A stretch of 64,000 nucleotides of DNA from Hexactinellida sp. DTS-2022 (taxonomy: Eukaryota > Porifera > Hexactinellida). The translations under genes and the position numbers were made by a program. The stretch covers positions 4,092,001-4,156,000 of the forward strand of contig JAPNXP010000011.1 in NCBI GenBank assembly GCA_028753945.1. Reading direction: 5' to 3'. Position 1 is the first letter of the stretch. Each line of letters begins with the position of its first letter. Positions 2,637 to 64,000 of this stretch are shown here, piece after piece. The notes beneath the pieces were generated by a model. That model made no database searches, was not told where the DNA came from, and was given only the letters and a program-made list of their open reading frames with translations.

Positions 2637-3041
2637 TTTGATTGGTCTAATTATTTATAAAAGTTAGGTATAAATTATTGTATTTTAATTTGAGTATTAA
2701 ATTAAGGAATAAATTGCTGTATCTACAGTAAGATTAGAATTATAATATCTTGTGATCAACTAAATCGTTTCTATGAAGATGGAATTTATCTTTAAAATGA
2801 TAAACTAAACAATAGCAGTAGCTTCTATTCATCTGAGTAACTTTGATTGTTCTCAGGTAGCTTCGTCATGCTTCTATTCAGCTTCTATTCACCCGAGTAA
2901 CTTTGATTGTTCTCAGTAACTTCGTCATTAACTGGTTGCAAAATAAAATTATACAGCTATAAATAAAAATAGAGACAAAATTTATCAATTATAGTACTAT
3001 TCCAATACCTATATCGTAACTCAAGGGAAAGAAAAAAACAA

Positions 3042-5626: not shown

Positions 5627-5649
5627 TTTCTTCTCTCTTTCCAATCAGC

Positions 5650-17291: not shown

Positions 17292-18892
17292 TATGGTGAT
17301 TCCTAATCAGGTTTATGTGAATTAAAGGAAATATCAAATAATATAGTCTTCCGAAGGTACAATAATATAGTACCTAATAGCACGTCCTATGCTAAGAGCT
17401 TGCACTTAACATATGGTATCACATTACTGGATTGATCAAAAATAGACATACACTCTATATTTTCTATGGAATATTTTAATCTGGCTTGACCTCTCTTCAA
17501 TTGGTACTAAGTTGTATAGGTAATTTGAGCTATTCTCCTTCAGGAATAATTAATTAATCGATTAAATTAATTAGTTTAAATTTAACGTTGCTGATTGAAT
17601 GTTGTAAGCCTAAAATTATGTGTGAGGATAAATCCATGGTGGAGTGCAAAACAGAACCCTAATAGGGGCTTTAAAGACACTTTTATGGTGTATTCTGGAA
17701 ATAAAGTTCTTAATCCGAAAAAGGTGTCTTAGAAAATGCACCGGATTTGGCTAGGCAAAAGTATCATAAAGCCCATACGATAAAGGGGCAGTTTTGATAG
17801 TAGTCCTTCTATGTACTATCGAGCTACGAGACGCAATAAGTAATACTTAGGTACAAAATTGGATTTGGAAGGGAATTTAAAGTTCAGTAAGCGAGCACAT
17901 ATTCCTCTACGCTACAGCCAAAGATCTACATACATTGGATGAAGTTTCCTGCAAAATTGAGTTTTTTCTGATTCGGAAACAGTCAATTTATAATTAGTTT
18001 TATTAGTTATTTTTATTTATTTTACTGATCAATATGCTCTTATTTATATTATTAATAATAATTATTATTAGTTAATTCAAGAAAATTGTTCGATTATGTA
18101 ACAGGAAGGTCCGGATCTAATCATAGCTTCCGGGCACTATATCGGAGACGCCACATAAAGGGCCCTTTAGATCGCACATATACAGTCTGTAATACTCGTG
18201 CTACCAATATACATATTAAAACAACAAAACATTATAATTGCGAAATGTATTCGGCATCCACAGATTGATCGCCACTGTGCCTCCAGAAATTGAAATCGGA
18301 CCATTTGTGTGATAGTTTATTTGATGTAAATATGAAAAGTGTCAACATGTTCCTGATTAAACCAATAAATATTACAAATTCAACAATCTTCTGAGGTGAT
18401 TTAATGAGCATTCACATAATTTAAATAGATTTTAATCTTTAATCTTATTTTGTCAATATTTTAACAAAAAGTTTCTAGATAAATAATTAAAACAAAATTA
18501 TTTAAAACTAGTGCAATTTAGCAAAAGTCATGCAAAATAAATTGTTTATATTGACCCCTTATTTGAATTAACAATTTTATAGCCCGGATAAAGGTATAGT
18601 ATTGAGTATACTTAACATGTATCTGGACATGCGTTTGTTCAGCATAGTTACTTACATTCATATAGTAATTTGTAATGTTAATGAACTAATATATTTTAAA
18701 GAATTCCTTAGGTAAATTTATTTATTATACACCGGAGTACACTAATTGCAAACGAGATTTTATCTAAAGAATTATTATGCTAACAGCTAACTACTTTAGA
18801 ATTGTCCCAGATATTGATTACTCTAATATGATTACACTTTTGACCTTACCACTTACAAAAATATTGTGTAATCTCCAAAGTAAAGACTACAC
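17292..18892. other. Upstream region of the 694-aa gene; source of a segmental duplication
   Basis: No gene seen. 17150-18005 (5' end of the gene plus upstream DNA) is duplicated in the same orientation at 21541-22375: shared blocks include GGAAATATCAAATAA, GTATCACA, TGAATGTTGTA, GAGCTACRAGAC, AGCCAAAGATCTACAT and GTCARTTATRATTA. 18300-18600 resembles 13265-14520 weakly. A 60-codon frame at 18086-18268 has no support. Confidence 0.45.
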
Positions 18893-18982
18893 GTATTTAT
18901 AAGTGAATTTGTATAATAGACTATGAGTGAATTTGTATAATAGACTATACTTATTTATAAGTGAATTTGTATAATAGACTAT
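18893..18982 (+). repeat. Short tandem repeat upstream of the 7TM-like cluster
   Basis: Three copies of a unit containing GTGAATTTGTATAATAGACT, spaced about 26-38 bp, with TTATTTATAA between two of them. Confidence 0.8.
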
Positions 18983-18994
18983 GTTAAAACTGAA

Positions 18995-19128
18995 ATGTTG
19001 TTATCCTGGTTGACTTTGGCATTATTATATTTATATGCCTCTTTCCTCTCTTTTTGACAATTATCTTTTTCTTTTGGTCTGTCTCTTTGTTGGATATAAT
19101 CCAACATAAATGGAAGACCAAGTTTTGA
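18995..19128 (+). pseudogene. Fragment of a 7TM-like family gene (TM1 and loop 1)
   Basis: From ATG at 18995 the sequence reads a hydrophobic TM1 broken by a stop, then after a frame change FFWSVSLLDIIQHKWKTKF and a stop. This matches the CFWSVYLLDAIQRKWK signature at the start of each of the five intact family members. Nothing further of the family follows before the intact gene at 19371, so it is a 5' remnant of a lost copy. Confidence 0.85.
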
Positions 19129-19370
19129 GTATAGAGCATTCCATGTTATTCTATCTAAGTTTATTTCCTATTTACTAATTTACTGCATTCGATTATTTTT
19201 CTTTTTTTCATTGAATTTTCCTACCGTTAGTAATTAGAAATAGCAACGTGGTCAAAAGGATGATTTATGTATACCTATTCTATTAAAAACACAAATCCCT
19301 AATAGGTAGACTGTAACACTATATATGTAGCTACAGACTACAGTTATAATAGTATATTTCAAAAATTAGT

Positions 19371-20483
19371 ATGTTTGAATATTGGCTTTTTAGGATATTA
19401 TTGGTGTTATTAATACTTCAGTTCCTTCTGCTATCTGTTGTTTCTTGCTTTTGGTCTGTTTATTTATTAGACACGATTAAGATTAAATGGAAGGTTTTTA
19501 AAAGAGCATCAAAGTGTATACAGCCAGGAAATAATGATTCTATACAGCAGTTATTAGCTTATGATTCTAAAACTGAATATGTAAAGTTTGTATTTCTCTT
19601 CTTTATGAACTTGGTAGAATGGTTGACATTCCTGTTTTGCGTTATAGGATTTATACTAAGAAATGCTAAACAGTTTCGATCGCATAGGCCCACATTCCAA
19701 ACAGAATTCAGTCTTTTAAACGTTTCTAGTAATAACAGTGAAATACGTTCAAATATTATACCATTTGAACAAAACCTTCGTTATATTCCCAACATGTTCC
19801 TTGTTCTGAGTTTAATTCTATTGGCAAGTCTATGTATGTATCTATCAGAGAGATTTGCAAAGAAAAGTTGGATTAAATCGAATTGTATACCTTATTTAAT
19901 GGGTTTCTTCTTGTGTTCGGAAATGGGAATTCAAATACTTGCATTTTTTTGTGTCATAGAGATAATTACTTTATGGTGCGACAAGTTATTTCTCATAATA
20001 GCATTTATAATTGCTATCAAGCAATACAGGAAACTTGCAAACATAATCAACTGGTCAATCGTTGACCTGAAGATTAGTAGAAACTATCCATTGTTGAAAA
20101 GACAGATTAATTCGAAGCGTATGTTCACCAGGGTGTTTAAATTAATTTTGACAGGGATTCTCCTTCTGATAATATCAGAACTTTTAGGGATCATTTTACA
20201 CACTACATCGTTACTGCTACGCCTACGAGAGGATAATACTTTTAGCGTTCACTCCTTATTCTTGTGTGAAGAATTGCATTTAGGTAACCTTCAAATCAAC
20301 CTTATATTCTCAATAATCCATTACACTAACCTTGTTATTGGATTAATTGGAGTCTCGTTTATTTTCATTCCATATATAGGATATGGACTCTCTACAATGT
20401 GTGCTATTCTATGGAGACTAATCAGAGGGAAAACTGGATACAGAACGCACTTTAATAATGACCTCCGTGCTCCTCTCATCTGA
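19371..20483 (+). CDS. 7TM-like membrane protein, family member 1 (370 aa)
   Basis: Intronless frame from ATG. Seven hydrophobic segments by eye at about 6-32, 72-96, 141-163, 176-198, 203-221, 257-283 and 313-340. Loop 1 (CFWSVYLLDTIKIKWK to AYDSKTEYVKF) and loop 3 (KQYRKLANIINWSIVDLK) are basic, so inside by the positive-inside rule. The loop after TM2 carries sequons (NVSS, NNSE) and the loop after TM6 an isolated Cys, so outside. That gives an outside N-terminus and an inside C-tail with WRLIRGKTGYRTHF, which is the topology of a GPCR. I see no DRY, NPxxY or other named GPCR signature. The family is unrecognised. It is closest to member 2, whose last 40 residues are almost the same. Confidence 0.85.
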   Translation: MFEYWLFRILLVLLILQFLLLSVVSCFWSVYLLDTIKIKWKVFKRASKCIQPGNNDSIQQLLAYDSKTEYVKFVFLFFMNLVEWLTFLFCVIGFILRNAKQFRSHRPTFQTEFSLLNVSSNNSEIRSNIIPFEQNLRYIPNMFLVLSLILLASLCMYLSERFAKKSWIKSNCIPYLMGFFLCSEMGIQILAFFCVIEIITLWCDKLFLIIAFIIAIKQYRKLANIINWSIVDLKISRNYPLLKRQINSKRMFTRVFKLILTGILLLIISELLGIILHTTSLLLRLREDNTFSVHSLFLCEELHLGNLQINLIFSIIHYTNLVIGLIGVSFIFIPYIGYGLSTMCAILWRLIRGKTGYRTHFNNDLRAPLI

Positions 20484-21430
20484 GAATTACATAAATGTGT
20501 CTGTAATTATATTTTGTAATAAGCTTAAGGGAGTTTTTATATAGATCTTCGAGATCACAGTTTACTATAGTATACTGGCTTGCATGCTCAAAAGATCAAT
20601 TTTATAAACTGACAAAACTGATCTTTCTCGTTTCCTGAACCTACTTACTGAAAATTGTGCTCTATTATATAAGTATAATTATTTGTAAGCATATTCTTTA
20701 ATTTGATAATATATATTCTTAAAACTAAAGTGTTGTGTGTTTGTTTGTTTGTCCGGATTGTATTAAAGTGATGGGGGAAACCGCATTAATAATTGAGGCT
20801 AAAACAGTATGCTGATTACGAATTTCGTATTTTCAAATTTCTAATCAGAATATTTATTGTTCTTGTTTACAAAAATATGTAAACAAATATTCAAAATTCA
20901 AGATGAACACAGAGTCAGCTTCCAACGAGTATTATAAGTAAACAAGATAAAAGAATGGATAACGGTAGAAAGGGATTTATATCTCTATAACAAATATTTA
21001 CTCACTATATAATCAATGGTTTAGTGAGGAGTAAGGACGCATAGCGGTCGTTAACTTGAGGATGCGTAGCACCATCCGTCGTAAAGCGATTGTTTATTTT
21101 ACTATAGAAATGCAATTATAATTCGTAATCAATCTATCCATCATTTCTTGGTAACAGTTATATGCAAGCATGATATAGCTTATATCTCTATCTGACTATG
21201 GATACATATATATCATACGTTTATGGTAATCACATAAATACCCGGCCAAATTTGCTGTACGTAGCAAAGTATTATCACTACCAATGTTGCCTAGCTACAA
21301 TGTACTTAGTTAGATATGTTACGGATATTCTCTGAGCTCTACTCTTATTCTAATCGAGTGCTTGTGTCAGTGAAAGGAGATAAATTAATTATCAAATCAA
21401 TTAATAATTAGAGCAATAAGAATGCTTAAT
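20484..21430. other. Intergenic after family member 1
   Basis: No gene. Holds a dispersed non-autonomous repeat (20690-21100, separate entry); the rest is AT-rich without recognisable content. Confidence 0.4.
20690..21100 (+). mobile_element. Dispersed non-autonomous element (Helentron-like ends), copy 1
   Basis: Starts with an AT-rich lead, GTTTGTTTGTTTGTCCGGA and TGATGGGGGAA. The middle has TATGCTGATTACGAATTTCG and GTAAACAA words. It ends in GGAGTAAGGACGCATAGCGG and GTCGTAAAGCGA hairpin-like sequence. The same start and end modules flank the 45542-46812 insertion. A GTTTG-run start and hairpin end recall invertebrate Helentron-type repeats, but class assignment is tentative. Confidence 0.6.
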
Positions 21431-21540
21431 AATTGTAAGTGTGGAGGATCAAAAATATAGGATCGCATTTACTAAAAAACGATCGCGATCGTGCATCCGA
21501 TCCATAATAAAATAAGTTCGTCGATCCCACTCTTATCGTC

Positions 21541-21684
21541 AAAAAGGATATTGATAGGTAGCATTACCAAGGAGATCAGTATGTTGATTAGGTATTTAGC
21601 TCCAAATATGATCAACGATGCTGTATCTCTTCCATTTGGATCGAGATTGGAGAAAATGATTGAAAATAACGTATGAAACATTAT
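21541..21684 (-). pseudogene. 5' fragment of a paralogue of the 694-aa membrane protein
   Basis: From ATG at 21684 it reads MFHTLFSIIFSNLDPNGRD, then LINILISLVMLPINIL, parallel to the first 46 residues of the protein at 15207-17291 with a single-residue indel-free match. It then runs into GATCG-rich repeat DNA. There is no rest of the gene. Confidence 0.88.
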
Positions 21685-21743
21685 GAATATCTTTAATAAG
21701 TTTTTGTGTGTACTAAAGGAGATATCAAATAACATAATACACT

Positions 21744-21919
21744 CATGGGCGTAGCCATGGGGGAGCCTGGGAGGGCCTGGTCCCCCAAAAATTATACCTG
21801 GGCCCCCCAAATTTTCTAAAATAACTTTGAATAAGGATCATAAAATACTCATAAAAATAATGGCCCCCCCTAAAAAATTTTCGGGCCCCCCCAAAATTTT
21901 ATGGTTGGCTACGCCCATG
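21744..21919. mobile_element. 176-bp hAT-like MITE
   Basis: Inverted tips CATGGGCGTAGCCA at 21744 and its complement ending at 21919. Flanks AATACACT (21736-21743) and AATAAACT (21920-21927) form an 8-bp target duplication with one mismatch. The interior has paired G- and C-runs (GGGCCCCCC, CCCCCCC). Confidence 0.85.
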
Positions 21920-22375
21920 AATAAACTCCAATATTAAATTGAATACTATATTATGGCTTATTAGGTCCTATTTTCTAATATATTGAACTCAACATTTGAT
22001 ATCACACTACTCCATAGCATGAACTAGTATATTTATTCCATAGATAATACGATCTAAATGGACCTTGATTAGGTGAGGGATGTATGCGTATTGGGCTCAT
22101 TAATTAATTATCAAAATTGAACGTATCTAACTGAATGTTGTACACTAAAATGATATAAGGTGATAAGTCGATTATGGAGTCTTCGAATTTCGAGCTACAA
22201 GACTTAATAAGCTCTAACTGTTAAGTAGATGCAAAATTGGTTTTGGAAGGGAATTTTAGTCAGTAAGCAAGGAATTCTGTTATAGCCAAAGATCTACATT
22301 TGATGATGCTCCATAGAGAAGTGAGTTATTTATTATTCACTTAGAAACCGTCAGTTATGATTAATTGGTTTTGTA

Positions 22376-22908
22376 GAAACCGTTTCACACGAATGCTGAA
22401 TTCTAACCGAATACTTTTTCCAATATTCAAATTGGAGCATGGAGCTTTAATTACTAAACTACTTAAACTTAAACTAAATAAAAACGGAGTAGAAACTAAT
22501 TATTTTCTTAGTTTATACTCAAATACTTAATTTTCATGCAAACTTTACACAGGGTATTTAGTTGAATAAAGTACTGGTCACTTTAAATAACGGATAAATA
22601 GATGAGCGACAACAAGTATCTGCTATATTGTACCTTATAATGTTCAAGATTAGTAGAATTTTTCTTATTACTGGGTGGATAATTCTATAAAGTGGGTGTA
22701 GAGTATGCAGACTTGTTGAAGCCTGAAGGGAGTCAATTTCGGAAGGGATGACCAAACCACCTGATGAGAATAAACGTGTAGAATAGATTTCCCAGTTTTT
22801 TCTAAGTTTGTTTGCGTGTCAGAATTGTAATATAAATATTGTGATAGGAAATGAAACAGTATTTGCTGTTGAGTTATAAACTAGGTTGCAATAGTTATAA
22901 TGTGTAGA
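22376..22908. other. Intergenic, no gene seen
   Basis: AT-rich; a 65-codon minus-strand frame has no support. Ends in the TGTGTAGA target site of the next element. Confidence 0.4.
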
Positions 22909-23419
22909 TAGGGCATTAGGATCGAACGATCAAAGATCGCGCGATCACGATCGCGATCCTTTTTTGACGATCGAAGCAGGATCGTCGATCGTATTTTACA
23001 GAACGATCGAAATGGAGATCGCGATCATTTTTTTGTATAAATTTTCGATCCTACATTCCGATCTTTAGAAAAGGTTGCCCAATTAAATTAATCCACCAAA
23101 CCACCTAATTTGTTTAACACTTATGTATTTAATTTGAATACGATTATTAATTCAATTTATCCATAAAACAGGCCCGTAACAATAAAATATTTTTCAGGTT
23201 GTTGAAAATCTAACTTCACAGTTTCTAAAACTTGGTCAAGTTGAAACCTGAGCATCCTGAATAGTTACTACGGCGAATAAGAAATGATCGAAAAAATGAT
23301 CGGGATCGGATCGGCGATCATTTGTAAAAATGCGATCGGGATCGAGATCGCGATACTATTTTAAGTGAAGATCGGGATCGAGATCGCGATCAATTTTTTG
23401 GCGATCGACTAATGCCCTA
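22909..23419. mobile_element. 511-bp hAT-like foldback element with GATCG-iterated arms
   Basis: Tips TAGGGCATTAG at 22909 and its complement ending at 23419. TGTGTAGA occurs immediately outside both ends (22901-22908, 23420-23427), a perfect 8-bp target duplication. Each arm of about 130-140 bp is a near-continuous run of GATCG, CGATC and GATCGCGATC words; the middle about 200 bp is ordinary AT-rich DNA. GATCG-rich fragments at about 21430-21540 and 42838-42890 are probably remains of the same family. Confidence 0.93.
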
Positions 23420-23427
23420 TGTGTAGA

Positions 23428-23858
23428 CAAATTACTTACTTTACCGAGTCACGTAATAGACATGTTCGTACTAACAAGAGTCTACTGTAGTGATATTTAG
23501 ATATAATATATTAGTAAAAAGATCAATCAAAAATAATTCAACTGAAAAACAAGACGTTCTAATCCATGGAAATCGTTTACACTGCAACACATACTCTATA
23601 TTGCGTATTATAAGTTGATATTTTGAATCAGCAAATTAGTCATTACAAATAAAACATTTGTGCTTCATATAGTAGGGTAACTATTAGAGGATATTCAGTG
23701 CGTTTTAAGTATCATATGACAACATAGTTCAATTGAAAGAGATATTAGTTTATTCTATTTGACTAATCAATATAAACCAAGAAGTTTAGTACTACCACGG
23801 TCTGTCTTAAATACAAGAAGATTCTATAGTAATAGTATTACAATACTCATAACTGATA
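23428..23858. other. Upstream region of family member 2
   Basis: No gene; AT-rich. A frame starting at 23759 overlaps the true gene out of frame and is not supported. Confidence 0.4.
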
Positions 23859-24959
23859 ATGGTGGACAATTGGCTGGTGATTATAATTTTAATGTTATTT
23901 TTAATACTTATAGTTCTTTTGATAAATTATGTGTTTTGTTTCTGGTCAGTTTATTTATTAGACGCGATTCACCGTAAGCGAAAGGTTTATAAAAGAGCAT
24001 TAAGGTGTATTCAGCAAGGAGATAATGATTCTGTAGAGAAGTTATTAGCTTATGATTCTAAAACTGAATATGTGAAGTTTGTATTCCTCTTTTTTATGAA
24101 CTTTGTAGAATGGTTGGGATTCCTGTTTGGCTTCATTGAAGTTATACTGGGTAATGCCAAACATTTTCATCTATATAACCACACAGTCCAATCAAATATA
24201 TTAAACACTTATAGCAATTACAGTAAAATACATTCAAATATTATGTTAAAACTAGAAAGACTTTCCAATATTCCAAATCCGTTCCTTGTTCTGAGTTTAA
24301 TTCTATTGGCAAGTTTATGTATGTATCTATCAGAGAGAATTGCAAAGAAAAGTTGGATTAAATCGAATTGTGTACCTTATTTAATCGGATTCTTCTTCTG
24401 TTGGGAAATGGGAATTCAGATTTTATCATTTTTTTGTTTCATAGAGATAATTGCTTTATGGTGCAACAAGTTTTTACTGATAATAGCATTTATAATATCT
24501 ATTAAGCAATACAGGAAACTTGTTATGATTTTCAACTGGTCAATCGTAGATCTAAAGGTTAGTGGAAACTATCAATTGTTGGGGAGACAGGTTAATTCGA
24601 AACAAATAATGACCCAAATGTTTGCATTTCTTTACACTGGTGTTCTTCTTCTGATAGTATCCGATCTTGTGGGAATTATTCAGCTGACTCTAACTATAGG
24701 ACTACGAGAGAATAACCCTTCCAGTTTTCGCTCCCTTTGTGAAGAACCACACTTTATTATAAATCCTGAAATCCACATAATTTTGTCAATAATCCAACAC
24801 GTTGACCTTACTATTGGATTAATTGGAATCTCGTTTATTCTCATCCCATATACAGGATATGGACTCTCTACAATGTGTGTTATTCTATGGAGACTAATCA
24901 GGGGAAAAACTGGCTACAGAACGCACTTTCATAATGACCTCCGTGCTCCTCTCATCTGA
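23859..24959 (+). CDS. 7TM-like membrane protein, family member 2 (366 aa)
   Basis: Intronless, from ATG at 23859. Same layout as member 1: TM1 with VFCFWSVYLLDAIHRK, the basic loop RALRCIQQGDNDSVEKLL, AYDSKTEYVKFVFLFFMNF into TM2, a variable glycosylatable loop (NHT, NYS), TM3 with SLCMYLSERIAKKSWIKSN, TM4, TM5, KQYRKLVMIFNWSIVDLK, TM6, a loop with CEEPHF, TM7, and the tail WRLIRGKTGYRTHFHNDLRA. The C-terminal 45 residues match member 1 almost exactly, while the outer loop after TM2 hardly aligns. Function unknown; receptor-like by topology only. Confidence 0.85.
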   Translation: MVDNWLVIIILMLFLILIVLLINYVFCFWSVYLLDAIHRKRKVYKRALRCIQQGDNDSVEKLLAYDSKTEYVKFVFLFFMNFVEWLGFLFGFIEVILGNAKHFHLYNHTVQSNILNTYSNYSKIHSNIMLKLERLSNIPNPFLVLSLILLASLCMYLSERIAKKSWIKSNCVPYLIGFFFCWEMGIQILSFFCFIEIIALWCNKFLLIIAFIISIKQYRKLVMIFNWSIVDLKVSGNYQLLGRQVNSKQIMTQMFAFLYTGVLLLIVSDLVGIIQLTLTIGLRENNPSSFRSLCEEPHFIINPEIHIILSIIQHVDLTIGLIGISFILIPYTGYGLSTMCVILWRLIRGKTGYRTHFHNDLRAPLI

Positions 24960-26104
24960 GAATTACCCTAAACTTCCCCACATTTATATAAATAATCTAT
25001 ATTATTAAATTCAATTGTTGAATGTGTTTGTGTGTTTGTTTGTCCGAATTATATTAAAGTGATAGGGGAATAGATATATTCAAATAATCACTTAGGAACG
25101 GAAAAAATATTGAATTATATAGACAATATACGCTACACGCTTGAATAGGGTATTTTGAGGGTGTAGGCATTTTTAGATATTATTCGACAGACAATCAATA
25201 ATTTTTTCTAAACTCCATACAAATTTAATAAATCCCTGTATGCCTGGACAGAACACAAAAATGGTTGAAATCCCTGTAGAGTACAGGAATCCCTGTTCGG
25301 TTGACATGAATGGACTGTTAATCATCTAGTTACACCTTATAAGATATTCCTATTTATTTTGGCAATTTTGGTTCTAACAACTAATTAACTGTTTTACAAA
25401 TCCAATACACTTTTACTTTAGAAATTTTACCTGTCATTATAGCTGGTAGTTTTTTCTGTAGTATTTGTTGGGATTGCTAAATTCTTATTATTGTATTTGA
25501 TTTTTGTAGGCTACTTTTCATACTTTTGAAAATATTAGACTAGAAAGCTTCATCTTAATCGCCTATTTTGGTAACATCAACTGGTAGATCTAGCACCAAT
25601 AGAATGTATGTTTGCCCCCTCCCCCCATGGCAATTTATATTCCCCCACTAGTTGGAAAATCCTGGCAATGTCCCTGTGCTTAATTGGGTAACTTTTGTTA
25701 AAGGATAGTTTGACTCGATTAAGCGGTTCGGTTTCTTATAAGATATTTCAATATAATCAATATTCAAATTTAAGACCTTTATGTTAATTAATTAATCAAT
25801 CCCACAGTCTCCCTTAATTATATTTGAGTATCTCTAATGTATATTTGACCCAATTGATTAGTAATCTATTTTCTATCAAAAGTTATTCAACTAAATCATC
25901 TTGTTCCAAAGATTGATTAGTTTTTTTAATTAAAGATGTGCCAAATTATTATTACAGGATAGTAAGTATAATTTGGTTAGGAAGGAGCAACCAGTAGATC
26001 ACTATAAATATAAGTAAATATATATTTAAATTAAAAAAAATTTATATGTAGATTATTATATAGCAATTAAAGCCGACTACAGCTAATAGTAGTAAGTAGT
26101 ATGT
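24960..26104. other. Intergenic after family member 2
   Basis: No gene. 24990-25075 is a short start-module fragment (GTGTTTGTTTGTCCG, AGTGATAGGGGAATAG) of the dispersed element seen at 20690 and 45542. Around 25615-25680 a C-run with CCCCATGGCAAT resembles hAT-MITE interiors. The rest is AT-rich. Confidence 0.45.
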
Positions 26105-27460
26105 AAATTAAACCCGCACATAACGGTGTCATAGTGCCAGCGCCCCCCCAAAATAATGTCCCTCCGGACCTGTGGCCAGGGACGTCGCCACGGAGGGGGG
26201 CATAGGGGGGCAATGCCCCCCCTGGTAGAAATCCTCGCCCCGGGGCAATGCCCCCCCTGGTAAAATTTCGTGCCCCGGGACATACCCCCCTGCTAAATTA
26301 TTGCCAAATAACGTTGTATGTGTATTATTATTATTATTATTATTATGTATACAAGCGCGCTTCGCTTGCTTTCGCTGCGCGGCTGCAGAAAGCACCGTTC
26401 TGGTGCCTCATATATCCCAACCAACAAATAACAGAAGTAACGTTTTGAAATTCCTTATAACGTCTACATCTAAACAACAAATATATACACATGGGTTGTT
26501 AACAACATCATATTTGGAATCAGCTTACTTAATTACTCCATATATAGTCGTTGGAAGTAAGCGGCCACGATCCTTTAAAACATGTAAATTACAAATAATT
26601 GATTGGATTTATTATTTTTTTCTCGCCCAATTAAATTGCAGTTTCAGATTGGCATTCTATAATGCACTCTTAACAAATGTTAGAGACATTAAATCAATTT
26701 ATACTAATTGAATGCTAGCTGCTAATCCATACTGTGCCACGATCGAATTTAATTGGTTAAAGGTTTTGTTACCTTTTGAGATTCAAGATGTGAATATTTT
26801 TCTTAGATCTATATTAGAACTTGTTTCTAGATACGTAGTTACCCACCTCCCTGCCAAATTTCAAGTTTGTAGCTCTTACCCAGTATCTCAATCAATTCCG
26901 AACAACAAACAACAAATAAAAACAAACCATTTAGATTTAATATATAAGATAGAAACTTGATAATTTCATATTATAATCGACTCTCGTTGATACGAATTTT
27001 GTGAGGGGGGGCATGCCCCCCCTGGTAATTTTGCCGCCCCCCCTAGATGAAAAATCCTGGCGACGTCCCTGCCTGTGGCCCTAGGGTCAGCTGTCCCCCC
27101 GGACCTATGGCCCTAGTGTCAGCTGTCCCCCCTCAGGATTAGATGTCCCCCCCCCCCCTCGGACTAATACTAGGGTCCCACAACAATAAATTTCACAATG
27201 TACATCACTATAGTTTCATATTCTACATTTATAGTAGTACGATTGGGGGACATCTAACCCTGAGGGGGGACATCTGACACTAGGGCCACAGGTCCGGGGG
27301 GACATCTGATCCTAGGACTACATGTCCGGAGGGACGTCTGACCCTAAGGCTACATGTCCGGGGGGACATCTGATCCTAGGGCTACAGGTCCGGGGGGACA
27401 TCTGACACGGGGGGACCGCTGACACTCCGACAACGGGTCTAATATGGTTTAATTACACTG
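26105..27460. mobile_element. Foldback element with iterated C/G-rich arms, carrying a nested hAT-like element
   Basis: The tips align as inverted copies: TAAATTAAACC...GTGTCATAGTGCCAGCG on the left against the complement of CGCTGACACTCCGACAAC...GGTTTAATTA on the right. The right arm is built of units of about 30-34 bp (GGGGGGACATCTGATCCTAG followed by GGCTACAGGTCC); the left arm has the complementary words (GGACCTGTGGCC, GGGTCAGCTGTCCCCC). The 895-bp hAT-like insertion at 26177-27071 sits in the left arm. The outer limits are approximate and no target duplication was found. Confidence 0.7.
26177..27071. mobile_element. 895-bp hAT-like element nested in the foldback arm
   Basis: Inverted tips CAGGGACGTCGCCA at 26177 and TGGCGACGTCCCTG ending at 27071. 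CCTGTGGC lies directly outside both ends (26169-26176, 27072-27079), a perfect 8-bp target duplication inside the arm repeat. Both ends continue as GGGGGGCATGCCCCCC-like hairpins. The interior has an (ATT)n run at 26328-26347 and frames of 136 and 82 codons without recognisable domains, so it is judged non-autonomous. Confidence 0.92.
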
Positions 27461-28361
27461 ACACTGTATTGTGTAGCTCAATTGATTTTTAACAAGCAAA
27501 TTTGTTGTTAATAATTAGTTGTTACAAATGTAGGAAAAATTGCGCATCATAATTAATATGATAATACTCGGTGTTATTACCAGAGTTTATGTTTTCCATG
27601 AGATAATGCGAACTCATTTAATAATAATGTTGTCACCATTTCTCTAATTGAATTTATTATTTACATGATGGTTTTCCATATCTGATTATTAGAACATCTC
27701 TAGTGTATATTTGGATCAATTGATTAGTAATCCTTTTCTGAGTAATTTTTACATTAGACAAAACAATTGACCAGTAAGTACGAATGATTTGTCTTTCAAC
27801 ATTTACACATTGATGTTACTAAGAAATTATTCCGACGCCGTTGGGTGATGATTTGTAGTGGATCAGTAAATTAGTTATTAAATTTAACTCAAAAATGGGA
27901 TATATATTTAAAAATTATAAATTACCTCTAGACTATTCATTTGATTTCTGGTCATATTAATACTTATCACAATTCTTACCACATTTATGTTTTGCGGGTA
28001 CAGTACGCCCTCGCTATCCAAACAAAAGTTCCAAATATTTTTATAATAAATAGAAGCTATATATAGAAGCTATAGCTATATAGCTTCTATATTATTATGG
28101 AAATATAACTATAAGTCACAGACAATTATTTTGAGTATTACACTATTTGTTTCGGTTGATCCCAAGCTTATTTACATAACCCTAATAAGTTTTCAAAAAT
28201 CGATGTCTAGATATTTCAGTTACATTATCTCTTATTCTTACTGCTTCAATCAATATCTACGGTGTACGTATGTTTGCCTTCATATCTATTTATTTCCGAG
28301 TAGTAGTTTGATGATATCCTTATCAATCATGTAACCATATTATAGAATATTCAACAACAGG
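27461..28361. other. Intergenic, no intact gene
   Basis: AT-rich. A stretch at about 27945-28000 weakly resembles TM1 of the 7TM-like family but is too degenerate to call. CAGTACGCCCTCGCTATCC at about 28000 looks like a pogo-type tip. A palindrome AGAAGCTATAGCTATATAGC lies at 28068-28090. Confidence 0.35.
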
Positions 28362-28369
28362 ATTGTAAG

Positions 28370-28491
28370 ACGTAGGCGACAACTTTTAAGGCACAAAAAC
28401 GTTGGGGGCCTAATTTGGAAAATCTCAATAATATACCCCAAACCTTGACGGTTGGGGGCCTGATCCTGAAAAAATGGAAGTTGACGCCTAT
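28370..28491. mobile_element. 122-bp hAT-like MITE
   Basis: ATTGTAAG occurs immediately on both sides (28362-28369, 28492-28499), an exact 8-bp target duplication. The tips are imperfect inverted copies, GTAGGCGACAACTT and the complement of AAGTTGACGCCTAT. The interior repeats GTTGGGGGCCTRAT. Confidence 0.82.
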
Positions 28492-28689
28492 ATTGTAAGA
28501 TACAGTTTCTCCGTTTAATAGAATCACCTCGGAACCAGGTTGCTTAGACCCGATTAAGTTGGGAAATCTATTAACCGGTGGCTCTATTAAGCGGAGTCGA
28601 TTGTATTGTAATAGATATCGTATCATTACTAAGAATATACTCAGTTACAAATGGAACTTAAAGGTAATGCTGATCTAACAGTCAATTAC

Positions 28690-28698
28690 TATATAAAG
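28690..28698 (+). promoter_or_regulatory. TATA-like box before family member 3
   Basis: TATATAAAG 62 bp before the ATG at 28752. The same nonamer stands 33 bp before member 5. Recurrence in front of two family members is the only support. Confidence 0.35.
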
Positions 28699-28751
28699 AA
28701 TAATAGAGGAAATTGAACATATAGTTGGTTTTAGATAAAATAGTATAAAAA

Positions 28752-29876
28752 ATGATGAATTATTGGATATTCGTCTTACTTCTGGTAGCATTAATATCTA
28801 CCACGATTATTTCAGGAATTGTGTTTCTATTTTGGTCGATTTCTTTACTGGACATGATCAATCGTAAATGGAAAGTTTATAAAAATGCATTAAAATATAT
28901 GCAAGAAGGAGATAATTCTCAGAATCTAATAGTATACAACTGTGAAACTGAATTTGTGAAATGTGTTTTGCTCTTCTTTATGAATCTGATGGAATGTCTG
29001 GGGTTATCCTTTACCCTTTCTATGCATATTGTTACTTTGTACATTGAGCACAATCAAGATGAGATTTACAAAAATGTGTCTACTAATTTCATATATGAAC
29101 ACCTACACTATATTTCCTTTCCGAATCAATTCGATAATTCGAAAACCATCCTGTATCCTGTCCTTATCCTCCCAAAAATATACAATATTTGCTTTTCAAT
29201 TGGTTTAATATTATTCGCTTGTATGTGTATGTATTTATCATCGAGGTATGCAAGGAAAAGTTGGATGAACGCAAACAAAATACCCTACTTGATTGTCATT
29301 TTCTTAGTGTATGAAACAATCACACAAATTCTAGCATCGTCATGCACAACATACATCATTGCTTGTTGGTGCGATAATTTCTTTCTGATTGCATCTATTG
29401 CAATAGTATTCAAGCAATATGATGAATTCGTAATGGTCATCAACTGGTTAATTTTTGATCTAAGAACTAATAGAAAGATTTCTTTAATGAAGAGACAAAT
29501 TCAAATGAAACAGACGTTTACAAGAACATTTCAATTTCTTAGAATGGGTATTATTTTGTTGATAATATCAGAGATTATATACAGCATTTCATACACTTTA
29601 GTTTTAATATTTCGGAAAAATACATACTCAATCTTAAGCTACATTTCACTTTGTGATGATCCTAACTTCGTTGACCCTTCAGGTCGTCTCATTTTCGAAA
29701 TACTTCATTGGACAGGATTTATTCTGGCAATAATTGGAGCCTCCACTCTTCTCTTACCATACAATTTGTATGGTCTCTCAACAATGTGTATTACGCTATG
29801 GAGATTAATCAGAGGAAAAACTGGATTTAGAACTCACTTTCATGTCGATCCAAAAACTCATCTCTATACCAAATGA
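28752..29876 (+). CDS. 7TM-like membrane protein, family member 3 (374 aa), most divergent
   Basis: Intronless; two adjacent ATGs, the first chosen. TM1 ends in FLFWSISLLDMINRKWKVYK. The basic loop is shorter (QEGDNSQNLIVYNCETEFVK). TM2 includes FFMNLMECLGLSF. A long variable outer loop holds NVST. TM3 has CMCMYLSSRYARKSWMNANK. Later segments carry FKQYDEFVMVINWLIFDLR and the tail WRLIRGKTGFRTHFHVD. Signature positions kept across all members are the FWS.(Y/S)LLD motif after TM1, the KSW in loop 2, the NW..(V/F)DL in loop 3, and GL(S)TMC...LWRLIRGKTG at the end of TM7. Function unknown. Confidence 0.83.
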   Translation: MMNYWIFVLLLVALISTTIISGIVFLFWSISLLDMINRKWKVYKNALKYMQEGDNSQNLIVYNCETEFVKCVLLFFMNLMECLGLSFTLSMHIVTLYIEHNQDEIYKNVSTNFIYEHLHYISFPNQFDNSKTILYPVLILPKIYNICFSIGLILFACMCMYLSSRYARKSWMNANKIPYLIVIFLVYETITQILASSCTTYIIACWCDNFFLIASIAIVFKQYDEFVMVINWLIFDLRTNRKISLMKRQIQMKQTFTRTFQFLRMGIILLIISEIIYSISYTLVLIFRKNTYSILSYISLCDDPNFVDPSGRLIFEILHWTGFILAIIGASTLLLPYNLYGLSTMCITLWRLIRGKTGFRTHFHVDPKTHLYTK

Positions 29877-30677
29877 TGTTTCCAATCTTTATTTTCTGAA
29901 CTAAATTAATAGTATTTGTATGCATAGCCTGATTCAATTCGTTTTGAGATGTTAATAATTGTCAAACTTGGAATCAGAGATACAGAAAAAGGAAAAATAA
30001 TCTATGAAAGTGTGTTAATATAATTAACTTATTTTCCTCTTTATAAGACCTGAATTATAGTATCATTGTGAGGAATAGCCATTAGTGCTATTAGAGTTTA
30101 ATTTATGGCGTAAATTCTGAGTGTATTGTAAATAATGTATGTGGTTAAAAATATTAATTTTGAATAAAATTAAAATTTCCATTAAAATCAGTAATTAAAC
30201 TATCATCTGCAGACAACAGTCCAACGAAAATGGTCTTACTTTGTTGTATTTAAAAAAATTATATATACAGTGGATAAATTATGGTTATTAAAACATCATA
30301 CAGAAAATGTCTACGAATATATATAATATGGTTCTTAAAACTAGAATATACTTATAACCGGAATCTACCGTAGTATATTTAGTGGAGATACGAATAACAA
30401 TTGTTGTATAACAAAATATAACGAATATAACATTGTAAAACCTCCAAAAGTGAACACCTTCAATAAATGAACAACTCCAAAATATGAACACTTTTTCTCG
30501 GTCCCAAATTTCCTCATTGTTTTACACAGTGTTTACTCTTCAACTTCTGAACACCTCTGAAAAGTGATATATGAACACCTAATCTGGTCACAATTATCCA
30601 AATTGTATAGGATATGAGTCATATGACCTCTTAAAAATTAACAAAGGATTTGGGGAATTTTTAAGCCATGTTGGAAG
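29877..30677. other. Intergenic, no gene seen
   Basis: AT-rich. 30423-30600 has GAACACCT / AACACCTC words typical of one end of degenerate pogo-like elements, but no second end was found. A 67-codon frame at 30288-30491 is not supported. Confidence 0.4.
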
Positions 30678-31073
30678 CAGGGTTGCCAACTCTCATTATT
30701 TAAAACCTCCCGCCCTCTTTCATTCGAAATCTCACGCTTTTTTATTAAATGTAAAATTGTGTCATCAATTTTAGAAACTATTTATTCTTCTATTTTAAGA
30801 CACATCTATTCTAAAATTATATGTAAATTTATTTAAACAGTTTTACTCATTGTGTTGAATCAGTATATTTTATAATTTTGCATCACAATAGATAATTATT
30901 TCTTGTTTTTTTATAAATTCTGCACACTTTTATCAAAATAGATAGGGAGCATAAAATTCAGGGTTGAGGATAAATAAAACCCTAATATACTGCTTATTGA
31001 GGTGAAAAATCATTTCTCACGCTTTTCTCAAAAAAAAAAGGACATAATATCACGAATTAAGTTGGCAACCCTG
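30678..31073. mobile_element. 396-bp hAT-like MITE
   Basis: Inverted tips CAGGGTTGCCAAC at 30678 and GTTGGCAACCCTG ending at 31073. Flanks GTTGGAAG (30670-30677) and GTTGGAGG (31074-31081) form an 8-bp target duplication with one mismatch. CAGGGTTGCCAAC is a widespread hAT-type tip. Confidence 0.88.
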
Positions 31074-31187
31074 GTTGGAGGGGGTGTTATTTGATCTGCT
31101 TGAGATGGACTTTCTGGAGGCTTTTCACACTTCTGTAAATGCACAGATAATTCATGATGTGGCTTCATTAGACAATATGTGATAACT

Positions 31188-31295
31188 CAGGGCTGGCGGG
31201 AGCAGTTATAAAGTGGTCAGGCCATGCCTTGACCGGCCTAACTAGCTACGAAAGTTTGGCCAGGCTATTGGTCTGACCGCTTCCGCCGGCTTTGT
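31188..31295. mobile_element. Small inverted-repeat element, probable MITE
   Basis: CAGGGCTGGCGGGAGC near 31188 pairs imperfectly with GCTTCCGCCGGCTTTG near 31278-31293, and GTGGTCAGGCC pairs with GGTCTGACC inside. A related GGTCAGGTTAACC fragment lies near 34040-34110. No clean target duplication. Confidence 0.5.
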
Positions 31296-31687
31296 AACTT
31301 ATAAGTTACTATTGGAGGTAGAACCTGGACAAGACACTTTAGCATGCCTGGATGTCCGAGCACCAGGTCCGGGGGCAATATAAAAGCGAATAAAGATTTG
31401 TATGCATAAATTGTACATGTATAATCCCACAAACCTTTGCTATAACTTTGCATAGAAGAGCAAGATCTGGATAATCTAATTTGTAGCAAATGTGTCCTAC
31501 GTACTTCTAACATCAAAGTTGGGAATTACATTTTTAATATGAATAGCTCTCAATTTTAATATATGTAACTTAAACTAATTAATAGAAATAGATAATAAAA
31601 ATTAAAGGGACATTACTCATAAGTAAATTCTGAAACGATATAAATTAATTACATTATACGGGGAAGGTAAAAGGTAAAAGGTAGTTT
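31296..31687. other. Intergenic, no gene seen
   Basis: Between the small inverted-repeat element and the 3' end of the leftward family member 4. An 83-codon frame on the minus strand has no support. Confidence 0.4.
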
Positions 31688-32797
31688 TCAGATTAGTGGG
31701 GTATTGAAATCATTTCGGAAGTGCGTTTTGTATCCAGTTTTTCCCCTGATTAGCCTCCATAAAGTAACAGTCATTGTTGAGAGTCCATATCCTGTATATG
31801 GGATGAGTATAAACGAGATTCCGATAAATGCAATTATCCATCTCGACCAGTTTAGGATTTGGATTGTAACGATAATATTATGAGCTCGAATTTGTATTCC
31901 TTCACAAACTGAGAAGTAGTGAATCCCAAAAGCATGATTTTCTTGTTTCATCAATAGAGGAATGAGTGATATAGTACTGGATATGATACCAGATATTATC
32001 AGAAAAGGAATCCCTGTCCAAATGAATGCAAATATTCTGGTGAACGATCGCTTTGATTTAATATATCTCTCCAACAAAGGATAATTTTTACTAACTTTTA
32101 GATCTACGATTGACCAATTGATAATCATAACAAGTTTTCTGTATTGCTTAGTTGCAATTATAAACGCTGCTATCAGTAACAACTTGTCGCACCACAAAGC
32201 AATAATTTGAGTTCCACAGAATGCTGACATAATCCATAATGGAATCTCACACAGAAAGAAAATACCTATCAAAGTGGGTATTCTGTTCGATTTAATCCAA
32301 CTTTTCCTTGCATATCTCTCTGATAAATACATACACAGACTTGCTATTAAGTTTATGCCTAGAACAAATAACATGTTGCTAATAGGAGAATAGTATCGGC
32401 CAAATGCAAAGTCTTGATATATAATACTGTTCTCATGATATATTTTTTGTTCATAATTAATACTCGATCGATTTGTTGGACTGTAGTCTTGGTAACTTTG
32501 TATTGAACTTAGAATTAGGAAAATAGAGCCACATAGGAATCCCAACCATTCTACCAAGTTCATGAAGAAGAGGAATACATACTTCACAAATTCAGTTCTA
32601 GAATCGTAAGCTAATACCTGCTGCACAGAATCATTATTTCCTTGCTGTATCCATCTCAATACGTTTCTATTGATCTTCCATTTACGTTGAATTGCGTCCA
32701 ACAAGTACACTGACCAAAAACAAAATACAATAGTTGTTAGAAGAAATATGAGAATCATAATCATCAAACAAATAATAATCAGCCACAGTTCAACCAT
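31688..32797 (-). CDS. 7TM-like membrane protein, family member 4 (369 aa)
   Basis: Intronless, the only intact member on the minus strand, head-to-head with member 5. TM1 WLIIICLMIMILIFLLTTIV, then CFWSVYLLDAIQRKWKINRN, IQQGNNDSVQQVLAYDSRTE, TM2 in FLFFMNLVEWLGFL, a variable outer loop with NRSS, TM3 with SLCMYLSERYARKSWIKSNR, TM4 and TM5, KQYRKLVMIINWSIVDLKVS, TM6, a loop with VCEGIQ, TM7 with IGISFILIPYTGYGLSTM, and tail LWRLIRGKTGYKTHFRND. The first 90 residues are very close to member 5, whereas the second half and outer loops have diverged. Confidence 0.85.
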   Translation of the reverse strand: MVELWLIIICLMIMILIFLLTTIVFCFWSVYLLDAIQRKWKINRNVLRWIQQGNNDSVQQVLAYDSRTEFVKYVFLFFMNLVEWLGFLCGSIFLILSSIQSYQDYSPTNRSSINYEQKIYHENSIIYQDFAFGRYYSPISNMLFVLGINLIASLCMYLSERYARKSWIKSNRIPTLIGIFFLCEIPLWIMSAFCGTQIIALWCDKLLLIAAFIIATKQYRKLVMIINWSIVDLKVSKNYPLLERYIKSKRSFTRIFAFIWTGIPFLIISGIISSTISLIPLLMKQENHAFGIHYFSVCEGIQIRAHNIIVTIQILNWSRWIIAFIGISFILIPYTGYGLSTMTVTLWRLIRGKTGYKTHFRNDFNTPLI

Positions 32798-33057
32798 TTA
32801 GATCGTAAGATAGTTTATTGTCGTAGATTAATAGTGTATTGTTTTTATTTATTATTTATATAAATACAACATTTGCAATGTAATTCAATGACCCAATGGT
32901 TTCTACTTATAAATAATGGGATATATAATATCTGAATAGTTCTGAGAATAAAATTACCAATAGGACAATACGTATTGTCCTATTGATAATTTTATGACTC
33001 AGAACTATTCAAATTTCAAAAATTCACTTCTATATGTTTGATTATGTGATTAATATA
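32798..33057. other. Upstream region of family member 4
   Basis: Should hold the promoter of the leftward gene; contains an imperfect palindrome around 32935-33010 (GTTCTGAGAATAAAATTACC and its complement around GACAATACGTATTGTC). Confidence 0.45.
32857..32864 (-). promoter_or_regulatory. TATA-like box before family member 4
   Basis: TTTATATAAA on the minus strand about 60 bp upstream of the ATG at 32797, a spacing like that before member 3. Weak support in AT-rich DNA. Confidence 0.3.
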
Positions 33058-33620
33058 CACTAACCAGCCAAAAGTATTTGTACAAATTGAATTTGAATGC
33101 GGACACAATAGTCGTCTGGTAACATATTAACGGCTATTTAAACTACTCTGAAATGACTCTAAATATCTTGCTATAGTTACAAACTAAAAAATATGTTGAA
33201 TTCAAGTAATTTTAGAAAATATCCATGAAGTGGCACAAGTGTATCTGCCACGTGCCACTTGTGGCTCAAGTGGCACAAATGGGAATGTGGCTGTAATTCA
33301 GTAGAAAATGAACGTATTGATTTGAGATTATGCACCTAGAGTAATTCGATCATGTGGAATTCAAATCTGGAATCAGAACTTCTATATTCTCATTCAATCT
33401 TGATGATCAGAAATAATATATTTAATTAGCTAATTATATAGTTAATGAGTTTAACACCTCCATATATATGTAAATTCTAAAACTTGCTATTTTATTACAC
33501 TTTATATATCGTTTTATGTAAATAGCAATGTTAATGTATCTACCAATGCTATTATGCTTCTAGAGGCTTCAATGTATAAATACAAATTATAGCTGTTCAA
33601 ATACTTTTGGCCGGTTAGTG
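33058..33620. mobile_element. 563-bp TA-flanked element (Tc1/mariner-like tips)
   Basis: Inverted tips CACTAACCAGCCAAAAGTAT at 33058 and its near-complement ending GGCCGGTTAGTG at 33620. TA stands directly outside on both sides. CACT..CC.GCCAAAAGTA is typical of Tc1-like ends. No transposase frame inside, so non-autonomous. It lies in the spacer between divergent members 4 and 5. Confidence 0.88.
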
Positions 33621-33622
33621 TA

Positions 33623-34997
33623 GATTCATCATAACAATATTTGTCGATTGTAATAAATAACCTAAAACATCAAAATATCTCTTAGGATGCACTAAATTTT
33701 AATACTCATCCAAAATATTCAATTAACATGAATAATAAAGAATTAGCATATTCCATTCTTTAACAAATCATTTGATCCCAAAGATAATGTGATGTGATTA
33801 TTATATTTGGCCACAATAACCATGATGTTTTTGGAACTGGTTTTAAATGTTGATCGTCTAAAATCTTCAAAAATCGATTCTTATAAATGCCAAAATTCTA
33901 ATATTATATTCTTCTAACACCACTCCTCGATATTCTAACTAACGATAACTTTAAAGTATATTACTATTGAAATACTAGATGCTACATTCAATTCTTTATG
34001 AGTAATACAAACTTTAGGGCAGTAGCCATCAAAATAAAATGGTCCGGTTAGGCCAAGCTGGATACAGTACCAATCTGACCGAGTGGTCAGGTTAACCTAA
34101 CCAAACCTTTTACATTGATCGAATTTTCAAATTAGGCTTCGCTTGTGCCATAATGAAGTTGTTAATTTCCTTTGTTTGATAACACTTCAGTTCTATTTAG
34201 TGTTAATTAATTAATTAATTAATTAATCAAATCCAATTCTATCGTTTCAACTTGGGATAATTATATTCATTCAACTTGTAATATCGAGTAGGCTTCTATT
34301 TTGCAATTGAAAACCAAAATTATATGCTATTTGTTACCTTCCGAAACACTTTTCTGAAACTGTTTAACACCTTTATATAGTGATGATTCCATGACAAAAA
34401 ATCTTGAAGTTAAAGCTGTGCATTGGAGGCACTACCAATCGAACAACTTCCAAAAGGATAGTACCTTTAAAGGAACATGCTGTCGGCACAGCTGTAATTA
34501 TAGATTTTTAATGTCCATTTTGACGAAAAGATTACACATCTAATTATGATAATAGTACTTCATGAACTCCCGAAAAAGAGAGAAGTATTTAATACTATAT
34601 TTAACATTTTTTCGCAATAAAATGCAAGTGTATACAATTGTTCAATAGTTTCAGCAATTATTTAAGTCCTAAACCACACAATACACGAACTGTTGTACGC
34701 ATCTTTGTTTTAATAGTGAACTTATGAAATATAATTAGTATAGTTGTTTTGTAAACATCTATTTTATTAGCCGTTTTATTAATGTAATTTTAATAACGAT
34801 TACATCAAATCAGTTATGTAATTTGTAATCCATTTTTACATTGTGTAATAAATTTAGTTTTATTTTGAATAATGAAAATTGCTAGATAATTCATTACATA
34901 GTTAATTCAGTAATAATTCAAAATATCCTCTTACCGGGTTTATAAATGGTCACACCCCTTTGAAGTAATAATTTGGTACAAAGTATAATGCAGTAAT
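33623..34997. other. Intergenic between members 4 and 5
   Basis: No gene. (TTAA)n run at about 34203-34227; GGTCAGGTTAACC repeat fragment at 34040-34110. Otherwise AT-rich. Confidence 0.4.
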
Positions 34998-35006
34998 TAT
35001 ATAAAG
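34998..35006 (+). promoter_or_regulatory. TATA-like box before family member 5
   Basis: TATATAAAG 33 bp before the ATG at 35031, identical to the nonamer at 28690. The short distance would imply a very short 5' UTR. Confidence 0.4.
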
Positions 35007-35030
35007 GATATTGTATTCGCACAATCTAAA

Positions 35031-36128
35031 ATGCTTCAACCGTGGCTGATTATTATCTGTTTGTTGATTTTGTTTCTATTATCTATTTTAGTCACTATTG
35101 TATTTTGTTTTTGGTCAGTGTACTTGTTGGACGTAATTCAACGTAAATGGAAGATCAATAGAAACGTATTGAGATGGATACAGCAAGGAGATAATGACTC
35201 TGTGCAGCAGGTATTAGCTTACGATTCTAGAACAGAATTTGTGAAGTATGTATTCCTCTTCTTCATGAACTTGGTAGAATGGTTGGCATTTGTTCCTGGC
35301 ACCATTTTCTTTTTACTAAATTACACAAAATTATTTAAAGAAAACAGGCCGAAATATCAATCAAGTGTCAACCCTGAAGCTTTTAATCATTCCACTGAGA
35401 ATATCATCTTTAATTCAAGTTTATATTATCCACCTTTTGGAAATTTCTTCTTTGTTCTGGGTTTATCCTTGATTGCAAGCATGTGTATGTATCTATCAAA
35501 GCGATTTGCGCAAAAAAGTTGGATAAAATCAGATAAAATTCCTATTTTACTAGTTACATTCACCCTGTGTGGGCTTGCAATACAAATCCTGTCATTATTA
35601 TGTTCAATAAGTTTGATTGTATCATGGGTTGATAGGTTATGTCTAACAGTGGCATTTTTAATTGCATTGAAGGAATTTAAGAAACTTAGGATGATAATGA
35701 ATTGGTCTATTGTCGATTTGAAGGTTAGTCACAATTATTCCCTGCTTAAGAGACAAATTAAAATGAAGAAAATTTTCACCAAAACATTCACTGTTATTTG
35801 GGTGGGAGTCATTTTTCTGTTCATATCACAGTTCTTATACACTATTAAGCTGACCATGATAATCGTCTTACGAGATGATAATAATTCCCGCCATATTTCT
35901 TTGTGTGAAAGCTCACACTTCTCCAATCCTGAGATATTGTCTACTATCAAAGTTTTAAACTGGATCGATATAATTTTAAGTTTAATTGGTGCTTTGATTA
36001 TTCTCTTTCAATTCATCGGATATGGACTCTCCACAATGTGTGTCGTTCTATGGAGACTAATCAGGGGAAAAAGTGGATACAGAACGCACTTTAATAATGA
36101 GTTATTTGTCTCTTTGATTCAAGAATGA
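35031..36128 (+). CDS. 7TM-like membrane protein, family member 5 (365 aa)
   Basis: Intronless, from ATG. CFWSVYLLDVIQRKWKINRN and IQQGDNDSVQQVLAYDSRTE are nearly the same as member 4. The outer loop after TM2 has NHSTE and NSSL sequons. TM3 reads ASMCMYLSKRFAQKSWIKSD. Loop 3 is KEFKKLRMIMNWSIVDLKVS. The loop after TM6 has LCESSHF. TM7 ends GYGLSTMCVVLWRLIRGKSG. The two inner signatures (after TM1, after TM7) are the best-conserved parts and the two outer loops the least. Confidence 0.85.
   Translation: MLQPWLIIICLLILFLLSILVTIVFCFWSVYLLDVIQRKWKINRNVLRWIQQGDNDSVQQVLAYDSRTEFVKYVFLFFMNLVEWLAFVPGTIFFLLNYTKLFKENRPKYQSSVNPEAFNHSTENIIFNSSLYYPPFGNFFFVLGLSLIASMCMYLSKRFAQKSWIKSDKIPILLVTFTLCGLAIQILSLLCSISLIVSWVDRLCLTVAFLIALKEFKKLRMIMNWSIVDLKVSHNYSLLKRQIKMKKIFTKTFTVIWVGVIFLFISQFLYTIKLTMIIVLRDDNNSRHISLCESSHFSNPEILSTIKVLNWIDIILSLIGALIILFQFIGYGLSTMCVVLWRLIRGKSGYRTHFNNELFVSLIQE

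Positions 36129-62855: not shown

Positions 62856-64000
<1,145 letters not shown>

Follow-up and report, generated by a model that had tools for sequence, protein, structure and literature searches.

A stretch of 64,000 nucleotides from the sponge Hexactinellida sp. DTS-2022 (contig JAPNXP010000011.1, positions 4,092,001 to 4,156,000; hereafter the window) carries five intact genes, A19, A23, A28, A31 and A35, for similar multi-pass membrane proteins. It lies on contig C3 in a host genome of 112.4 Mb that is assembled in 18 contigs. The five genes belong to a lineage-expanded superfamily of single-exon genes, whose products are best assigned seven membrane passes with the N-terminus outside and the C-terminus inside. 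Our leading reading, held tentatively, is that these proteins are surface receptors separate from the named families of G-protein-coupled receptors (GPCRs).

A genome search with one member returned 33 places, and one weak match among them (25% identity) was the entry to a second, larger subfamily, B. With a subfamily B protein, 64 places were found, some of subfamilies A, C and D included. Searches with further members led to subfamilies C and D. They also revealed branch F-H, a more distant one spread over contigs C11, C7 and C1, with four uninterrupted genes lying within one 6.2-kb stretch of C11. Merging the places from the searches that uncovered A-D gave 77 loci, 48 of them with an uninterrupted frame, defined as a frame of at least 340 amino acids (aa) without a stop, which is either aligned over at least 300 aa or at least 380 aa long. 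Subfamilies A-D account for 75 of the loci and 46 of the uninterrupted frames, and the distant branch for the other two frames. The distant branch itself has at least 14 single-frame loci at an expect value (E) of 1.3e-6 or better, plus three weaker ones. All these locus counts are lower bounds, and an uninterrupted frame is not the same as a functional gene, since one or more of these frames, L044 for example, lack an ATG close to the start. The window genes belong to subfamily A, which makes up 11 of the 48 proteins. A preliminary description of the window, made from its sequence alone, had reported a cluster of a receptor-like family; the cluster is real, but it is only a small part of a genome-wide superfamily, the extent of which was understated.

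The subfamilies share ancestry. Profile-profile comparison connected A, B, C and D with 94.1-99.6% probability in all six pairs, over 269-358 columns. Branch F reached 85-90% with B, C and D, and 0.3% with A. The single sequences G and H (L068 and L069) matched A, B and C weakly (0.7-18.4%, except 65.7% between C and H) but reached 81.8 and 86.1% with D, and 98.8 and 99.1% with F; as they link mainly via F and D, their placement rests on these two. The controls remained low, with a maximum of 15.1% in 30 comparisons with reversed alignments, and of 1.0% in ten comparisons with a sugar-transporter exon and a 694-aa protein from the window. Furthermore, several features are common across the 48 proteins, namely a Trp in the first transmembrane segment (TM1; 44/48), a Glu in TM2 (46/48) and an Asp or Glu in the TM5-TM6 loop (46/48). 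All 37 proteins outside subfamily A have one aligned Cys in the TM2-TM3 loop and another in the TM6-TM7 loop, a pair present in none of the 11 within it. By this alignment, the window subfamily has lost the outer-loop Cys pair.

Group-balanced hydropathy gives six main peaks, one of which is 33 residues long. The best assignment of this long peak is TM4 plus TM5, joined by a loop of about four residues, because both structure models discussed below break the helix there (at 193-196 in the first, at 200-203 in the second). An odd number of helices is preferred because, with six, the strongly basic loop after the long peak would lie outside, against the charge pattern. In each of 42 family proteins, Lys and Arg together are both more numerous and denser in the predicted inner parts than in the outer ones. 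In subfamily A, the inner loops carry net charges of +2.4, +3.3 and +7.6, and the C-tail +3.7. The outer loops are neutral or negative in A and B, and the last outer loop is at +0.7 in three C proteins. Glycosylation sequons point in the same direction, with 73 in the outer loops versus 40.5 ± 5.9 expected from shuffling (0/300 shuffles as high), and 25 in the inner loops versus 31.8 expected. For subfamily A alone, sequons exceed the shuffles on both sides (outer 30 versus 14.4; inner 17 versus 8.5, with 2/300 shuffles as high), with the inner excess due in part to the invariant NWS of the motif NWSIVDLK. Together, the charge pattern and the outer sequons support an outside N-terminus and an inside C-terminus, as the preliminary description had deduced. 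Its view of the outer loops as glycosylatable and cysteine-bearing holds for the sequons and for the TM6-TM7 loop, which has one Cys in all five window proteins, but not for the TM2-TM3 loop (0/5). The TM6-TM7 Cys of the window five sits at a different place from the aligned Cys of the other subfamilies.

The window five are most similar on the predicted inner side, with amino-acid identities of 63% in the inner loops, 52% in the TMs and 24% in the outer loops. The ratio of nonsynonymous to synonymous substitution rates (dN/dS) is nevertheless alike inside and outside (inner loops 0.29, TMs 0.37, outer loops 0.31), because silent changes rise in parallel with the amino-acid changes (dS of 0.86, 1.02 and a saturated 2.53, respectively). 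Misalignment of the outer loops could add to their divergence figures. Silent divergence is patchy along the window genes. Between A31 and A35, the proportion of silent differences is 0.12-0.15 in codons 1-80 and 0.44-0.75 in the rest, and third-position identity falls from 0.90-0.95 in codons 1-80 to 0.30-0.75 in the later 20-codon bins, and to 0.0 in a short last bin. Codons 1-80 of A31 (32558..32797, minus strand) and of A35 (35031..35270, plus strand), which form an inverted repeat, have therefore probably been subject to gene conversion, which would explain part of the strong conservation after TM1. Given the conversion and the parallel rise of silent changes, the outer loops of the window genes give no sign of positive selection. 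The preliminary description had contrasted a conserved inside with hypervariable outer loops, as expected for ligand recognition. At the level of amino-acid identity this contrast stands, with the reservation that the A31/A35 tract contributes to the inner conservation; as selection for recognition it does not, and the excess of amino-acid change it predicted for the outer loops is absent from the dN/dS values.

In the sister subfamily B, the best sampled, it is the last three helices and not the outer loops that show the excess of amino-acid change. A comparison of 20 recent B copies gives dN/dS values of 0.90 (95% interval 0.68-1.18) in TM5-TM7 and 0.76 (0.35-1.94) in TM1, compared with 0.39 in TM2-TM4, 0.41 in the inner loops, 0.37 in the C-tail and 0.46 (0.30-0.68) in the outer loops. 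The excess in TM5-TM7 fits a ligand pocket; relaxed constraint would look alike. As a family, the superfamily copies are under purifying selection. A separate observation concerns the silent sites of the B inner-loop codons, where dS is 0.10 versus 0.28 in TM5-TM7 and in the outer loops, which may reflect conversion or constraint at the nucleotide level.

If the proteins are receptors, the helical bundle would take in a ligand, and TM5-TM7 are the part of it that changes fastest among the recent B copies. A disulfide bond joining the TM2-TM3 loop to the TM6-TM7 loop, which the window subfamily has lost, would hold the outer face. On the inner side, the TM1-TM2 and TM5-TM6 loops, which are long and basic, would together with the C-tail relay the signal to a conserved partner.

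Several points weigh against a seven-helix receptor. A plain per-protein hydropathy count finds six raw peaks in 33 of the 48 proteins; even with runs of at least 30 residues counted twice, seven segments are found in only 28, the remainder having eight (14/48), nine (4/48) or six (2/48). Thus, the seven segments of the preliminary description stand as the best assignment for the superfamily and are not proven. The same description named AlphaFold models and a Foldseek comparison of the five proteins as a way to check its proposal, and the outcome is divided. Two AlphaFold2 models were built from the five window proteins only, the second with another member placed first, and both have low confidence (predicted local distance difference test of 55 and 53). 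The first resembled GPCRs among the VIA-align matches listed (816 chains aligned), and the second showed no GPCR-like bundle among those listed (49 chains aligned). Foldseek against the PDB gave no match better than E 0.17. Because the second model did not reproduce the likeness to GPCRs seen in the first, we do not use this likeness as proof. Furthermore, with equal dN/dS on both sides of the membrane, the window five show nothing that points to change driven by recognition, and the value near 0.9 in TM5-TM7 of subfamily B may mean that constraint is relaxed and not that the helices diversify. Surface-protein families with many copies can also have roles other than reception. The receptor family of the preliminary description is therefore plausible and unproven, since the orientation fits, but the fold models disagree.

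The proteins could also be true but very divergent GPCRs of a known class, eroded beyond recognition by profiles, which we consider rather unlikely. Like class A and the other GRAFS (glutamate, rhodopsin, adhesion, frizzled, secretin) GPCRs, the superfamily has seven segments by the best assignment, an outside N-terminus and an inside C-terminus. GPCR genes are often intronless and tandemly duplicated, and taste and pheromone receptors have a short N-terminus, as does the superfamily. The differences start with the loops. Class A GPCRs have a short TM1-TM2 loop and a disulfide bond from TM3 to the TM4-TM5 loop. In the superfamily, the inner TM1-TM2 loop is about 41 aa long (40-43 aa at the assigned boundaries in A, B and C), the TM4-TM5 loop has about 4 aa and on average no Cys, and the paired Cys, outside subfamily A, are in the TM2-TM3 and TM6-TM7 loops. 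Class A GPCRs are further marked by (D/E)R(Y) where TM3 ends and by NPxxY in TM7. An Arg ends TM3 in all 37 proteins of A and B and in none of the 11 of C, D, F, G and H, which does not amount to the class A motif, and inspection of 15 aligned superfamily sequences by eye revealed no NPxxY. No GPCR profile was among the matches listed for 28 members. Two GPCR-like genes of the same genome were tried as a bridge to true GPCRs; they showed no similarity to the superfamily, and a relation by this route was rejected.

The superfamily also remains without a name in broader searches. Against Pfam, the 28 members had no convincing match, the best being to unrelated families at E of about 0.01. There was no GPCR family among 25 listed of the 26 Pfam families matched at E up to 10, and no match to the GPCR clan for three more members (E up to 0.1) or for four members of the L070 group (E up to 1). 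NCBIfam returned for five members a single stray match, of one member to a thiazolyl peptide family (E 0.0049). PHROGs gave three matches at E 0.021-0.078, each to one member of five, and assignment to a viral family was rejected. Profile searches of the PDB with 28-sequence and 6-sequence profiles found no credible relative. Consequently, the earlier description of the family as unrecognised is confirmed for Pfam, NCBIfam and the PDB. In the literature, the titles and abstract openings of the papers listed contained no description of the superfamily.

A five-sequence PDB profile search matched pannexin-3 over TM6-TM7 at E 0.059, a weak likeness to the pannexin/innexin channels that would suit a multiplied channel, transporter, scramblase or structural membrane-protein family rather than receptors. 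Near-invariant charged residues in or beside membrane segments, here the Glu in TM2 and a Lys at the start of TM2, occur in channels, as do long helices like those of the structure models. Yet the pannexin match was gone at E up to 10 with the broader, 28-sequence profile, and the relation was rejected. Pannexins have four helices. The Pfam families listed include no transporter or channel, and transporters less usually form scattered, many-copy families that turn over rapidly. We regard a non-receptor membrane family of this kind as unlikely.

A more specific channel comparison is with the insect odorant and gustatory receptors (Or/Gr) and their relatives GRL and PHTF, the seven-transmembrane-domain ion channels (7TMICs). 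Like these, the superfamily has seven segments, a length of around 370-400 aa and lineage-specific multigene families with very low conservation, and extreme sequence divergence is normal for 7TMICs according to the sections of PMC9998090 used here. The same sections define 7TMICs mainly by seven TMs and an intracellular N-terminus, in contrast to the outside N-terminus predicted in all 42 of our proteins. No insect Or/Gr channel was among the VIA-align matches listed for the two low-confidence models, a result that excludes nothing, an Orco-like fold with a cytoplasmic anchor domain included. With this orientation, a relation to 7TMICs is scarcely plausible. Because neither the sequence features of GPCRs nor the 7TMIC orientation was found when looked for, we file the superfamily under no known family.

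The spread of single-exon copies over many contigs, including inverted copies with identical proteins about 2.5 kb apart, could also suggest cargo genes of a mobile or viral element. Most of this explanation is refuted, and we regard it as very improbable. Homology between B copies extends into the flanks by anything from a few bases to more than 1.4 kb, and its ends are not shared, a pattern that suits segmental duplication better than an element. Two short peptide patterns per scan gave 85 matches in viral contigs and 157 in prokaryote genome contigs, none of them confirmed. The purifying selection on the family likewise speaks against mere cargo. The inverted pair consists of the B genes L033 (C16:4929854-4930915) and L034 (C16:4933371-4934432), and their stretches are identical at 3688 of 4062 positions, owing to recent inverted duplication, conversion or an assembly effect.

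If the proteins are surface receptors, as we favour, the host has far more candidate receptors than a class A profile shows. Over the whole genome, this profile found one place above the cut-off and one below, in a six-frame search that can miss intron-split genes, whereas the superfamily has at least 60 uninterrupted frames (46 in A-D and 14 in the distant branch). It is possible, although doubtful, that these genes are the main chemoreceptor set of an animal lineage, drawn from a seven-helix superfamily unrelated to GPCRs and insect-type channels. Such a set would comprise 60 or more single-exon genes whose products share the orientation of GPCRs; a disulfide bond would join the first outer loop to the third, and long inner loops would carry the signal to a partner. 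In being a multigene 7TM set specific to its lineage, in an animal that branched off early, it would resemble the GPCR repertoire of the sponge Amphimedon. The survey of that repertoire, as far as the sections used here describe it, relied on Pfam profiles of the GPCR_A clan to retrieve proteins (Krishnan et al. 2014, PMC4302439). A family without a Pfam match would therefore not be listed there, and surveys starting from such profiles cannot see the superfamily. For a receptor set, the gene list and a short sequence signature would make the chemical sensing of this lineage directly testable.

Within the window, the genes lie as uninterrupted single exons at 19371..20483 (A19, plus strand, 370 aa), 23859..24959 (A23, plus, 366 aa), 28752..29876 (A28, plus, 374 aa), 31688..32797 (A31, minus, 369 aa) and 35031..36128 (A35, plus, 365 aa). 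A sixth copy is reduced to a 5' remnant of 31 codons at 19024..19116 (plus), covering TM1 and the start of the TM1-TM2 loop, and was found by tblastn with A35 (E 1.6e-5). This agrees with the five intact intronless genes of 365-374 residues and the remnant reported earlier, and the tandem duplication with gene birth and death is upheld too. Identity to A19 ranges among the other members from 43% in A28, the most divergent, to 67% in A23. In the tree, four of the window genes group together (support 95/94), and the position of A28 relative to copies on contig C1 has no resolution. Judged from five collinear blocks of 70-82% identity, A19 and A23 are the products of a segmental duplication of about 3.6 kb (17156..20779 and 21546..25070, both plus), which copied the 5' end of the adjoining 694-aa gene along with the family member and its flanks.

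This adjoining gene (15207-17291, minus) has a single exon and encodes a multi-pass membrane protein that no Pfam family matches convincingly, and its first 47 codons recur as a fragment, 74% identical, at 21541-21681 (minus), copied in the A19/A23 duplication. It has at least 12 relatives whose frames stay open for 500 aa or longer, on C17, C16, C12, C11, C14, C8, C6, C3 and C1, and represents a second intronless membrane family without a name, beside the seven-helix one. The stretch LWLYFRNKTKVKYSG of this protein resembled the family C-tail, and a distant membership was considered; it was rejected, since profile comparison gave only 0.8% and at most 0.4%.

Further out, similar sugar-transporter exons are found on both sides of the cluster in opposite orientation (10877-13189, plus, and 37878-38780, minus), perhaps from an older inverted duplication. 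Two near-identical FLYWCH/MULE transposase frames, inverted and 17 bases apart (Pfam was run on the first), occupy 2973-5644, where the guanine-cytosine content is 46-54% versus about 35% on either side. A tandem repeat at 39585-40211 reads as a repeated frame, FSTIFHHS..FHHFPPFS, and is probably non-coding. About 660 bases of almost perfect trinucleotide repeat at 62808-63509 leave several frames open and show a strong skew of guanine over cytosine or the reverse. The window also encodes an AMOP-domain protein, which points to an animal. A silicatein-like active-site pattern occurs at one site in the genome, which reads as the cathepsin type.

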